This document shows positions 16,453 through 20,654 of a DNA stretch of 64,000 bases, in pieces. Positions within the stretch are counted from its first letter, which is position 1, and every line of letters starts with the position of its first letter. The notes below the pieces were generated by a model. That model saw only the letters and a program-made list of their open reading frames with translations. It ran no database searches and was not told the DNA's origin. A program made the translations under genes and the position numbers. The stretch is from an uncultured Glaciecola sp. Lineage in GTDB: Bacteria > Pseudomonadota > Gammaproteobacteria > Enterobacterales > Alteromonadaceae. The stretch is from the NCBI RefSeq assembly GCF_937770335.1, contig NZ_CALJHY010000003.1, positions 1 through 64,000 on the forward strand, in the 5' to 3' direction.

Positions 16453-17256
16453 TTATTGTAAGTTCAGCACTTGTTGCATGCTGTAGAGACCTGCCGGCTT
16501 ATTTTTAAGCCAAATAGCAGCAGTTAATGCCCCATTCGCAAACGTTAAGCGACTGGATGCTTTATGGGTTAATTCTATTCGTTCACCTATCGTGGCAAAT
16601 ATAGCGGTATGTTCGCCAACTATATCACCCGCGCGGATCGTACAGAAACCAATGCTTTGTTGATCGCGCTCCCCCGTGTCACCTTGCCTACCATAAACCG
16701 CACATTTAGACAGGTCACGGCCTAATTCATCTGCAATGGCTTCGCCAATAGCCACGGCAGTGCCTGACGGAGCATCTTTTTTATAGCGGTGGTGTGCCTC
16801 TACTATTTCAATATCCGCATCTTTTCCCATTACCGCACTTGTTTGTCTTACTAAGCTGAGCAATAAATTGACGCCAACACTGTAATTGGCTGCAAACACA
16901 ATCGGAATTGATTTCGCTGCTTGGTCAATCATCCTCAACTCGGGCTTTGAAAGTCCAGTAGTACCGATAACGATTGCCTTATTATGACTGACACACCAAT
17001 CAAGATTGGATTGCAAGACTTGCGGCAAGGTAAAATCAATAATAATATCCGCAATACCCGTGGGTTTTTGCTGAGTATCGCAAACGTTAATGTACTGTTT
17101 AGCAACTCCTGCCAGTTCACCTGCATCGATACCAATTAATGAGGAACCGCTTCTCACGCTAGCAAATCCAAGAGATACGTCGGTATGCTGATAGCAAGCA
17201 TCAATTAACACTCGCCCCATGCGACCATTCGCACCCAAAACACCTATTTTAGTCAT
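16453..17256 (-). CDS. dapB: DapB, 4-hydroxy-tetrahydrodipicolinate reductase
   Basis: DapB is the second committed step of lysine and diaminopimelate synthesis and uses NAD(P)H in the cytoplasm. The N-terminal nucleotide-binding motif is GVLGANGRMGRVL. IIDFTLPQ and VIGTTG follow, and the catalytic block EAHHRYKKDAPSGTA contains the conserved His and Lys. The product is 267 residues (E. coli 273). It lies upstream of carA in the same direction with a 380-base gap, so carAB probably has its own promoter. Confidence 0.97.
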   Translation of the reverse strand: MTKIGVLGANGRMGRVLIDACYQHTDVSLGFASVRSGSSLIGIDAGELAGVAKQYINVCDTQQKPTGIADIIIDFTLPQVLQSNLDWCVSHNKAIVIGTTGLSKPELRMIDQAAKSIPIVFAANYSVGVNLLLSLVRQTSAVMGKDADIEIVEAHHRYKKDAPSGTAVAIGEAIADELGRDLSKCAVYGRQGDTGERDQQSIGFCTIRAGDIVGEHTAIFATIGERIELTHKASSRLTFANGALTAAIWLKNKPAGLYSMQQVLNLQ

Positions 17257-17454
17257 ATAAACTCTATCTTTTTTACGTTTGTGATATATTGCCCGAATAA
17301 CATAAAAAGCTAAAGCTAGATTTAAATTAATAATAACTCTGGAACAATTTTATTTGAGTTATAATGATGAATAATGGATAAGATGAGTCGAAACTCCAAG
17401 ACTCGCTAACGTGCGTTGGTTCAACTCATTGGTATATTGAAATACGGAACATTC

Positions 17455-18144
17455 ATGCAAAAATTGTATATTTGGGATTTCCCTACTCGTCTTTTTCATT
17501 GGTTGTTGGTCATTGCAATTGCCTCCCAATACGTCACAGCAGAACTAATTGATGACGCTATTCAGTGGCATTTTTATGGTGGCTATTTTATTTTAGGGCT
17601 CTTGATATTTAGATTAATTTGGGGCATTTGGGGAGCTTATTATGCTAAGTTTTCGCAATTTATTGTGTCCCCACAACGCGCAATACAATATTCAACCACA
17701 TTCACTAAAAGTAACTACAAGCCAATTTTAGGTCACAACCCCTTGGGTGCTTATTCTATAATTTTTATTCTAACCGTATTGCTAACGCAAGCTATCAGTG
17801 GCTTATTTATCACCGATGACATTTTTCATAGCGGTCCCTATTACAACGCTATAGGAGACGACACACGAGATATAATGAATTGGCTGCACAACCAGGGATT
17901 TAAAGCAGTCTGGCTTTTTCTTAGTTTGCATATCGGCGCAATGATTGTCTACAAATTTGCTAAAAAACAGAACTTAGTTGTAAGTATGATCACGGGATAT
18001 AAGTCACATAAAAACCAAATACGAGCTATTCAGGCGCAAAATCATTGGTTAAAGTTTGCGGTCTTCGCCTGCCTTTCAGCAATAATCGTCTACCTCATTG
18101 TCGTTACTTTCGCACCGGAAGTTGTTGACGATTTCTACTACTAA
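17455..18144 (+). CDS. Cytochrome b561-family membrane protein
   Basis: This is a diheme-type cytochrome b of the b561/hydrogenase-b family in the inner membrane, passing electrons between the quinone pool and periplasmic partners. The start MQKLYIWDFPTRLFHWLLV is typical, so ATG at 17455 is preferred over the upstream GTG. Four membrane helices are visible. His residues suited as heme ligands occur in TRLFHWLL, QWHFYGGYF, and near the end in WLHNQGFKAVWLFLSLHIG. The 229-residue length fits the family. A cytochrome c' gene lies convergently 640 bases away, which hints at a shared redox role; that link is inference. Confidence 0.9.
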   Translation: MQKLYIWDFPTRLFHWLLVIAIASQYVTAELIDDAIQWHFYGGYFILGLLIFRLIWGIWGAYYAKFSQFIVSPQRAIQYSTTFTKSNYKPILGHNPLGAYSIIFILTVLLTQAISGLFITDDIFHSGPYYNAIGDDTRDIMNWLHNQGFKAVWLFLSLHIGAMIVYKFAKKQNLVVSMITGYKSHKNQIRAIQAQNHWLKFAVFACLSAIIVYLIVVTFAPEVVDDFYY

Positions 18145-18235
18145 ATAACTTCTATCTATTCAGATGCATAATGGGCTGTACGACTATTTTAGGGCTAAAG
18201 CGAGGGTAAGAAGCGTCTGTAAAAAGCGTCAGATA

Positions 18236-18275
18236 AAAAAAGAGCCAAGGTTATTCACCTTAGCTCTTTTATTGA
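18236..18275 (-). terminator. Strong terminator, best read on the minus strand
   Basis: AAAGAGC-C-AAGGT pairs with ACCTT-A-GCTCTTT around a five-base loop. On the minus strand a seven-T run follows, so it ends the 30-residue gene at 18300-18392. On the plus strand four T follow, so it may also serve the b561 gene. Confidence 0.8.
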
Positions 18276-18299
18276 AGGACTCTACACTAACGACTTATA

Positions 18300-18392
18300 C
18301 TAGAAAAATGCGTTCGCTTGAGAAATTGTCAATCCATAAAGAATAGTTAAACCCACTGCAATTGCTGTTTGTTTTAATGCATCTTTTGACAT
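18300..18392 (-). CDS. 30-residue single-TM peptide with strong ribosome site
   Basis: ATG at 18392-18390 follows an AAAGGA site on the minus strand; the frame ends with TAG at 18302-18300. The peptide begins MSKDALKQTAIAVGLTILYG and ends ISQANAFF, that is a short polar start, one hydrophobic helix and a short tail. A clear terminator follows 25 bases after the stop, and a hairpin-rich region lies upstream. Ribosome site, start, stop and terminator together support a real gene, although codon statistics cannot be judged at this length. Size and layout recall the YnhF-type small membrane proteins, but I cannot show homology. Function unknown. Confidence 0.6.
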   Translation of the reverse strand: MSKDALKQTAIAVGLTILYGLTISQANAFF

Positions 18393-18446
18393 ACTGGCCA
18401 ATCCTTTTTTTGTTTTTATCTAGGATTTAGCGCTAGTAACTTCCTT

Positions 18447-18558
18447 GTTTCCATAGAAACCTCAAAGGGTTTTGAGGACTCTTCTCTACAATCATTGTAA
18501 TTGCTATAAATAGCAATTATAGCACTGATACAATAAACAGGTTTCTCCCAAAACCTGT
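18447..18558 (-). promoter_or_regulatory. Hairpin-rich leader upstream of the 30-residue gene
   Basis: Five inverted repeats lie in 112 bases. They are GTTTC/GAAAC at 18447-18460, CCTCAAA/TTTGAGG at 18460-18477, TACAAT/ATTGTA at 18487-18499, AATTGCTA/TAGCAATT at 18499-18518 and ACAGGTTT/AAACCTGT at 18537-18558. Neighbouring stems abut, so they could stack coaxially. The first minus-strand hairpin (18558-18537) is followed by TTTATT, which is terminator-like. This could be a structured 5' leader, a small RNA, or a short repeat element. Confidence 0.5.
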
Positions 18559-18681
18559 CATCGTTAACAAGAATATTACATAAAAATCACATTAAAGAAA
18601 CACTAATTTTTTAGGTCAATTTGAGTCTTAACGATATTATAATTTTAAGTGACATTAATTTTTTAACTTTATAAATTTAAA

Positions 18682-18717
18682 AACAAGGTGCTTTAATATT
18701 GCGATTAAAAAAGCACC
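18682..18717 (-). terminator. Probable terminator of the cytochrome c' gene
   Basis: GGTGCTTT (18687-18694) pairs with AAAGCACC (18710-18717) around a 15-base AT-rich loop; on the minus strand TTGTTTTT follows. It lies 60 bases after the cytochrome c' stop. Confidence 0.6.
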
Positions 18718-18779
18718 ATTTCTGTTTGTTTTATAAAAATTAAGTATGTATACATTTTATGGATATTAATCTTCCCAAA

Positions 18780-19247
18780 TCAATCTTTCTTAAATTTATC
18801 ATGACACGCTTTACAAGTTGAACCTAAGTCACCTATGGCCTTGCGATAATTACTTTCGTCTTTAGCCATTGCGACTTTTTGTAGGCTCGCGGCGGCATTA
18901 ATCAGGTCTTGTGTTTTGCTTTTAAAGTCATCCATTTCTTCCCAAACAATATCTCGAGCATCGGTTTTCACTGGAAACTTCCTGGTATCCAATGCAAAGT
19001 AATCACCCATCATCGACGCGAGTTGTCCAATACGTAATGAATTTGTTGTCATGACATCTGCGTCATAATCAATTTGACCTTTAGCCATGGCGCCAAGCGG
19101 GCCCATATTGCTTCGAACCAATTGCAATACTGCTTTCCTAAAATCGACCGCCGTGTTTGCCTGTTTTTCTGAACTGGCTTCTTTTGCAAAAACTAAAGGT
19201 GTCGCTAAGATCGCAGCTATAGTTAGTGAAGTAAGTATTTTCTTCAT
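18780..19247 (-). CDS. Periplasmic cytochrome c'
   Basis: This is a class II c-type cytochrome, a four-helix bundle with one heme near the C-terminus, which in characterised members binds NO or CO and can protect against nitrosative stress. The heme motif CKACH is followed by DKFKKD at the very end, as expected for the family. An N-terminal Sec signal MKKILTSLTIAAILATPLVFA precedes residues such as FRKAVLQLVRSNMGPLGAMA (the conserved first helix). ATG at 19247 is preferred because a GGGACA site lies just upstream. The mature protein would be about 134 residues. Confidence 0.92.
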   Translation of the reverse strand: MKKILTSLTIAAILATPLVFAKEASSEKQANTAVDFRKAVLQLVRSNMGPLGAMAKGQIDYDADVMTTNSLRIGQLASMMGDYFALDTRKFPVKTDARDIVWEEMDDFKSKTQDLINAAASLQKVAMAKDESNYRKAIGDLGSTCKACHDKFKKD

Positions 19248-19441
19248 ATTATGTCCCTGTATTAACATTTAATTACTGATATTAAAATTTTACTATTATA
19301 AAGGCATAGATTGACAGTTTATCTGCATGATGTCCCTTAAATCAAATTAACGTAATCTTTATTAAGAATAGATTAAGTGTGATAAACAAACCTTCTTCAT
19401 GAACATAATAATATGATTACTTTGTTATAAACAATATGGAA

Positions 19442-19477
19442 AGCAAAAAAAAACGCTCAATTTACGTGAGCGTTTTT
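19442..19477 (-). terminator. Terminator of the dnaK-dnaJ transcript
   Basis: AAACGCTCA and TGAGCGTTT pair around a seven-base loop. On the minus strand a long T-run follows, and it lies 56 bases beyond the dnaJ stop. Confidence 0.85.
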
Positions 19478-19532
19478 ATATTTTGTTTGCAAGCACTTAA
19501 GACATCCGGTCTATGCAAGCGGATAGTACAAA

Positions 19533-20654
19533 TTACTTGGTTAAATCGTCGAAGAATCTCTTCACACCATCAAAAAATCCCTGCTCCTTTGGTCGATGCT
19601 TACCGCCACCAAGAGAAGCATCAAACTCTTCTAACATTTCTCTTTGCTTGGGTGATAAGTTAACTGGCGTTTCAATCACAACTTTACACATCAAGTCACC
19701 TACACTGCCGCTGCGAACAGATTTAACCCCTTTCCCTCTAAGACGAAACATTTTACCTGTTTGCGTCTCTAGCGTGATCTTTAGCTTCACTTTGCCATCT
19801 AAGGTAGGAACTTCAATTTCACCGCCTAGTGCCGCAGTAGCGAAACCTAAAGGTACTTCGCAATATAAATTATTACCGTCGCGTTCAAAAATTTCATGCT
19901 CACGAATGTTAACCTGGACGTAAAGGTCTCCAGCAGGAGCTCCATTTTCGCCAGCTTCACCTTCACCAGTGAGACGAATTCTATCACCCGTATCAACGCC
20001 TGCAGGCACCTTCACAGATAACGTTTTAGTTTTTTCTGTGCGACCTTGGCCACGACATGGACTACATGGGTCGCCAATAATTTTACCCTTACCAGAGCAA
20101 GTAGGACAGGTCTGCTGGACAGCAAAGAAGCCTTGGCGCATTTGTACCTGACCGTTTCCTTTACAAGTTGGGCAACCGGTCGGCGTTGATCCCTTATTCG
20201 CTCCTGAACCATGACAGCTATCGCATTCAACTAAGGTGGGAACGCGAATTTCAACGTCCTTACCGCGAACGGCCTCCTCTAATGACATCTCAAGGTTGTA
20301 ACGTAAATCGGACCCTTGGCGAGCACGCGATTGACGGCCTCGACCACCACCAAAAATATCACCGAAAACATCACCAAAGATATCGCCAAACTCAGCACCT
20401 TGACCATGCCCACCGCCGCCGCGACTTTGATCAACTCCGGCATGACCATATTGGTCATACACAGGGCGCTTTTTAGAATCAGTTAAAATTTCATGCGCTT
20501 CCTGCGCTTCTTTAAATTTTTCTTCCATACCCTTGTCGCCTTGAGTGCGATCGGGGTGGTATTTCATGGCGAGCTTCTTATAGGCTTTCTTAATGGTGCG
20601 TTCATCAGCACTGCGTTCTACGCCTAATACTTCGTAGTAGTCTCGTTTGGACAT
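19533..20654 (-). CDS. dnaJ: DnaJ, Hsp40 co-chaperone
   Basis: DnaJ delivers unfolded clients to DnaK and stimulates its ATPase. Domains in order: the J domain (residues 1-70, with YHPDRTQGD containing the HPD motif), a Gly-rich linker (about 75-110, [17 protein letters not shown]), a zinc domain with four CxxCxGxG repeats ([32 protein letters not shown]), then the two beta-barrel client-binding domains. The start [11 protein letters not shown] at 20654 is chosen by homology; upstream in-frame Met codons are not conserved. The product is 373 residues (E. coli 376). It follows dnaK on the minus strand with a hairpin in the 200-base gap. Confidence 0.97.

Follow-up and report, generated by a model that had tools for sequence, protein, structure and literature searches.

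Between the genes for cytochrome c' and cytochrome b561, in a 64,000-nucleotide stretch of DNA from an uncultured Glaciecola sp. (the window), lies an open reading frame (ORF) of only 30 codons preceded by a series of inverted repeats, which raises the question of whether this ORF is a gene and whether the repeats control its translation. The preferred answer, held with a probability of about 0.62, is that the locus encodes the mRNA of a small membrane peptide, the translation of which is off by default and is opened by some factor. According to this model, the leader of the mRNA would fold into a conserved set of hairpins, of which the last helix (P6, AAUCCU/AGGAUU) would cover the Shine-Dalgarno sequence; because the Shine-Dalgarno sequence lies inside P6, little or no translation would be expected until P6 opens; and a trans-acting RNA or protein would open P6, upon which the 30-residue peptide would be made.

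The locus and its predicted transcript

The features of the locus are listed in Table 1, in the direction of transcription; the genomes that possess the peptide gene are called carriers. The AAAGGA site, the 30-codon frame and the terminator with seven T that an earlier note had described on the minus strand are all present in the window. The ORF list contains the same frame with an upstream TTG start, as a protein of 33 amino acids. The upstream neighbor, on the same strand, is the cytochrome c' gene (PF01322, E 1.5e-32), and the cytochrome b561 gene (PF01292, E 1.3e-23) is downstream and convergent. The earlier note had drawn from this location a hint of respiration or stress, a link that comes from gene order only; the peptide gene comes with a terminator and a promoter-like block of its own. 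Judging by the position of the -10-like block, which a promoter scan scored in only two of the six carriers (G003 and G012), transcription probably starts near 18568, and a single-gene transcript of approximately 330 nt would extend from this block to the terminator. Seven terminator-like sites are found at positions 17000-20000, compared to a mean of 1.9 in shuffled sequence; the terminator of G012, inspected by eye, is a hairpin with a different stem sequence. Another hairpin (19449-19477), between dnaJ and the cytochrome c' gene, has a terminator-like score on both strands.

Table 1. Features of the peptide locus, with positions numbered as in the window.
Feature	Position	Strand	Remarks
Extended -10-like block TGTAATATT	18572-18580	minus	TGTAAT invariant in 6/6 carriers
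P1, 5'-terminal hairpin, GGGAG in loop	18530-18564	minus	15 pairs, 7 with changes on both sides
P2 5' arm, AGUGCUA, long-range helix	18520-18526	minus	paired in 100% of cells
P3 hairpin	18500-18517	minus	paired in 83% of cells
P4 hairpin UACAAUGAUUGUA	18487-18499	minus	4/5 pairs never vary
P5 hairpin	18455-18482	minus	consensus structure
P2 3' arm, UAGCGCU	18429-18435	minus	partner of AGUGCUA
P6 5' arm, AAUCCU	18422-18427	minus	pairs with AGGAUU over the Shine-Dalgarno sequence
P6 A-rich loop	18406-18421	minus	partly in step with A-R-N triplets
Shine-Dalgarno sequence, AAAGGA	18402-18407	minus	AAGGA columns invariant in 6/6 carriers
P6 3' arm, AGGAUU	18400-18405	minus	partner of AAUCCU
Peptide ORF MSKDALKQTAIAVGLTILYGLTISQANAFF and stop TAG	18300-18392	minus	30 codons, one predicted helix; ATG at 18392, TAG at 18302-18300
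Intrinsic terminator, seven T	18235-18270	minus	stem 18270-18238, 14 pairs; T run 18241-18235

Conservation and distribution of the peptide

The small hydrophobic-peptide gene proposed in the earlier note is borne out by conservation of the peptide in 6 of the 13 genomes of its genus (Glaciecola sensu lato), which match a profile of the peptide with E of 1.9e-22 or better; the next-best match in the 13 genomes has E of 0.099. In all six carriers, the gene is flanked by the cytochrome c' gene on one side and the b561 gene on the other. Their peptides have 90-100% identity to that of the window, with 25 of 30 columns invariant, and the codon positions of the ORF that vary among them are the third position in 19 of 30 codons, the first in five and the second in two. 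Of the 15 pairwise dN/dS values, 14 fall within 0.03-0.12; the exception, 0.34, belongs to the closest pair, in which changes are few. These codon comparisons show the peptide to be under purifying selection, and by the same comparative evidence the 30-codon ORF is a true small gene.

The structure predicted by AlphaFold from the six near-identical sequences is a single helix of residues 3-29 with a mean pLDDT of 91.7. Hydropathy reaches a peak of 1.9 over the 15 residues that start at residue 9 (GRAVY 0.73), lysines are found at the start of the peptide, and an invariant SQA is close to its end; from this combination the peptide is likely to be a single membrane helix or an uncleaved signal anchor. 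A role in membrane stress or in slowing of growth is a guess.

The earlier note looked to the Alteromonadales for relatives, but only six species, all of one genus, gave credible matches. When 295 genomes of the family were searched, the peptide profile had 28 matches with E up to 0.1, namely the six carriers and 22 others that were rejected as relatives (E 0.0028 or worse, several of them within long frames or containing stops), so that no credible relative was found there beyond the carriers. The named records that matched in a search of genome contigs are four Glaciecola loci, including one of G. pallidula. No relative was found in viral contigs, plasmids or phages, no sequence of the PDB matched, and no family of Pfam, NCBIfam, PADLOC or PHROGs matched the peptide; likewise, the accessible portions of the open literature on Glaciecola/Brumicola small RNAs, toxin-antitoxin systems and small proteins of Alteromonadales gave no description of the locus. 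The locus thus adds a peptide gene outside all of the family libraries searched, with comparative evidence for both the peptide and RNA control. A match of 57% to the peptide in an Erysipelotrichaceae MAG, with E of 2e-5 calculated relative to candidate stretches only, is likely due to chance.

The cytochrome c' and b561 genes are close together in all 13 genomes of the genus, at distances of 98 to about 1,290 bases. In a tree of the two flanking proteins (midpoint root), the six carriers group together with support 82/90, and the simplest history consistent with this tree is one gain of the peptide gene at the base of the group, losses elsewhere also being possible. In four of the non-carriers (G001, G002, G005 and G006), an ORF of approximately 340-355 codons, which we take to be alcohol-dehydrogenase-like, is found at the gap between the cytochrome genes; no such ORF was seen between them in G004, G007 and G011.

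Conserved pairing in the leader RNA

The leader has a length of about 176 nt, and its segment 18572-18404 folds at -43.3 kcal/mol (z -4.1), with none of 200 shuffles as low. The five inverted repeats that the earlier note saw upstream are a fair description of four consensus hairpins (P1, P3, P4 and P5) plus the Shine-Dalgarno hairpin. Per 20-nt block, the mean pairwise identity ranges over 0.60-0.89 across 18592-18393, whereas outside the leader it is 0.19-0.52 in the spacer (18792-18613) and 0.10-0.17 just past the terminator. Divergence of the leader is 0.05-0.24 per site among five carriers and 0.39-0.43 between G012 and the rest; synonymous sites of the ORF diverge by 0.37-0.62 among the same five, except for the pair G008/G009.

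Covariation was evaluated in an alignment, built without reference to structure, of six sequences of which four are close. The structure evaluated, itself derived from these six sequences, has 49 consensus pairs that are paired in 92.5% of cells, and 11 of the 49 have changes on both sides, compared to 3.7 in shuffles (0 of 500 reached 11) and 1-5 in slid controls; P1 accounts for seven of these pairs. At least as many further pair types were counted in 50 of 500 shuffles. On the strength of these comparisons, the leader is shown to be a conserved, covarying RNA. The helices differ in how they vary. Only one of the seven pairs of P2 has changed on both sides (G-C to A-U in G012), and five never vary; the pairing of P4 is hardly tested because of its invariant pairs. 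All six pairs of P6 are kept in all six carriers with zero variation, so P6 is not supported by covariation and might be conserved for its sequence. Roughly where P5 lies, G012 has an unrelated sequence that folds alone at -10.0 kcal/mol.

When single leaders were folded at 37 C and compared to 200 dinucleotide shuffles each, those of four genomes beat all shuffles, that of G008 did so only weakly (8 of 200 as low) and that of G003 did not (54 of 200). The consensus fold at this temperature has a predicted energy of -19.9 kcal/mol versus a minimum of -37.7 in G003, -31.4 versus -43.0 in G010, and 0.4 versus -42.4 in G012, where P3 and P5 misalign. For G000 (0.006-0.08) and G003 (0.07-0.11), the full P2 helix is rare in the model.

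A model of the leader found only the six carriers at E under 1e-3 among the 13 genomes of the genus, with weaker matches from E of 0.0014 (G002) upward. In 196 genomes of the family, searched with stricter filters, six matches had E of 0.01 or better, namely five carriers and G219 (0.004); the matches listed do not include the carrier G010. The weak matches in G219 and G002 and one in G008 were rejected as poorly aligned, those in G219 and G008 also being inside coding sequence. No Rfam family matched the window or the six loci at its gathering score; the best match below threshold at the leader, sau-41, was rejected (31.5 bits versus a threshold of 80).

Predicted occlusion of the Shine-Dalgarno sequence and its candidate openers

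Complementarity to the Shine-Dalgarno sequence is shown by the alignment to be invariant in all six carriers. In every carrier, AGGA is predicted to be unpaired with a mean probability that does not exceed 0.04 between 0 and 42 C, and the modeled cost of opening is 3-10 kcal/mol; the occlusion would probably operate in the cell as well. The earlier note had suggested RNA-level control and had named lack of conservation of the peptide and of the pairing as grounds against its own reading; both are conserved, and the conserved pairing with the Shine-Dalgarno sequence inside a helix provides good comparative evidence for RNA-level control of the peptide gene. Since the predicted occlusion persists across 0-42 C, heat alone would not open the start site, and an RNA thermometer was rejected.

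The opener would presumably be a trans-acting RNA or protein, and the leading candidates, put forward tentatively, are a small RNA with Hfq or a protein of the CsrA type; hfq and csrA genes are present in all 13 genomes of the genus. mRNAs controlled by CsrA have several GGA motifs, one of them at the Shine-Dalgarno sequence. The leader has GGA motifs in the P1 loop (five of six carriers), in GGAAGU (all six) and in the Shine-Dalgarno sequence (all six), a layout that resembles the one used by CsrA, the binding of which is putative here. As for Hfq, A-R-N triplets next to the Shine-Dalgarno sequence are reported in the accessible part of the literature on Hfq-bound E. coli mRNAs, and such triplets adjoin the Shine-Dalgarno sequence here too, at a frequency near chance. 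The P6 loop has A-R-N triplets in step with AGG, with three variable columns at the N place and the first triplet broken in G000. A run of four triplets before AGGA occurs once in the window and in 25 of 100 shuffles, and no run of five was found in the window; because 0.32 matches of four are expected in the window, the A-R-N reading is weak, and the P6 loop is at most a possible Hfq distal-face site.

The bases UAGCGCU of P2 could also take part in an extended Shine-Dalgarno helix. A bolder version of the model, which is distinctly unlikely, would make the peptide a lineage-born membrane effector, P2 and the extended Shine-Dalgarno helix a bistable switch acting all in cis, and an Hfq-small RNA pair, CsrA or a metabolite the opener, with no adjacent antitoxin RNA. 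Freeing of the Shine-Dalgarno sequence by P2 itself was rejected, as the energy model favors it by at most 1.9 kcal/mol, and by practically nothing in several cases.

Comparison with type I toxins and other explanations

In its layout, the locus resembles the mRNAs of the type I toxins timP and tisB. In the part of the report on timP that was available (PMC11228461), the ORF begins at nt +145, the Shine-Dalgarno sequence is trapped in the last stem-loop, and the product is a small inner-membrane protein with a signal sequence. Shared with timP (formerly RyfA, RF00126) and its antisense TimR of enterobacteria, as far as these are described there, are a transcript of approximately 300 nt, a multi-hairpin leader that is conserved in structure, the Shine-Dalgarno sequence in the last stem-loop, and a small hydrophobic protein with a signal-like N-terminus; unlike timP, the peptide here has 30 residues rather than 38, and no divergent complementary small RNA was found. 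Neither the window nor the six loci contain a match to RF00126 that reaches its gathering score, and at the locus none appeared up to E of 10. The available part of a report on tisB (PMC7708055) describes a sequestered ribosome-binding site, a highly structured leader and a small toxin, and the likeness to tisB/IstR-1 of E. coli is one of layout alone. Type I toxins are small hydrophobic peptides, typically under 60 residues, and many but not all have an occluded ribosome-binding site; the peptide has 30 residues, and its site is predicted to be occluded in all six carriers.

By analogy with TimR/timP, an excess of the peptide would damage the membrane and an antisense small RNA would repress the structured mRNA, an interpretation that is unlikely. 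In its favor, four of six carriers have a divergent promoter-like match located 238-245 nt ahead of the ATG. The search of the divergent strand upstream yielded no antisense small RNA, and the six carriers do not all share an antisense promoter-like match, although an overlapping or distant antisense RNA may exist. In none of the six does the complementarity of the mRNA to the divergent strand, over 60-240 nt ahead of the inferred start, exceed that of shuffles (26-88 of 100 as low), and G012 has only about 80 nt between the cytochrome c' stop codon and the inferred transcription start. Repeats exceed those of 40 shuffles in G000 (18 bases with two mismatches, versus at most 16) and in G003 (11 exact versus a shuffle maximum of 10, within the end of the cytochrome c' coding sequence) but not in the other four. 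Also against a toxin are the net charge (+1 to +2) and the moderate hydropathy calculated for three versions of the peptide, the lack of a PADLOC match, and strong purifying selection at one fixed genomic place. If the peptide is toxic, this would be a timP-like locus with no antisense RNA found next door; if it is non-toxic, it would be a clear example of a small protein that is young, limited to one clade and controlled by RNA. In the window, the divergent promoter-like match is at 18613-18643 on the plus strand. The near repeat of G000, which resembles codons of the ORF, is at 18716-18733 on the minus strand, between the cytochrome c' stop codon and the peptide gene; it is absent at that place in the other carriers and is probably due to chance.

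The remaining alternatives concern the leader. The peptide might be an ordinary small membrane protein, translated constitutively, for example by a standby route, from an mRNA that the hairpins mainly stabilize; P1 is the best covarying element, and the GGGAG of its loop (absent from G003 only) could act as a standby site, but the invariant complementarity to the Shine-Dalgarno sequence leaves this explanation with a low probability. That the locus produces a dual-function RNA, with hairpins that pair with other mRNAs and the peptide as a second product, is very unlikely: the transcript is compact with its own terminator, there is one strong copy per carrier and the leader is conserved, but conservation peaks at the Shine-Dalgarno helix and the ORF, and pairing explains much of the rest. 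The separate small RNA from the leader that the earlier note considered is not needed. An origin of the leader as a decayed upstream gene, or its translation as an upstream ORF, is extremely improbable. An ATG does occur at one alignment column in the six genomes, opening frames of 13, 20, 26, 26, 26 and at least 35 codons that are similar in four of them, but G000, G010 and G012 deviate in length and frame, and no Shine-Dalgarno sequence precedes the ATG. Among four genomes (G000 and G012 being left out, as their frames break), five of the six pairs have a dN/dS of 0.58-1.75 for the leader frame and the other has an infinite value, which indicates no purifying selection, and it is the pairing of the leader that covaries.
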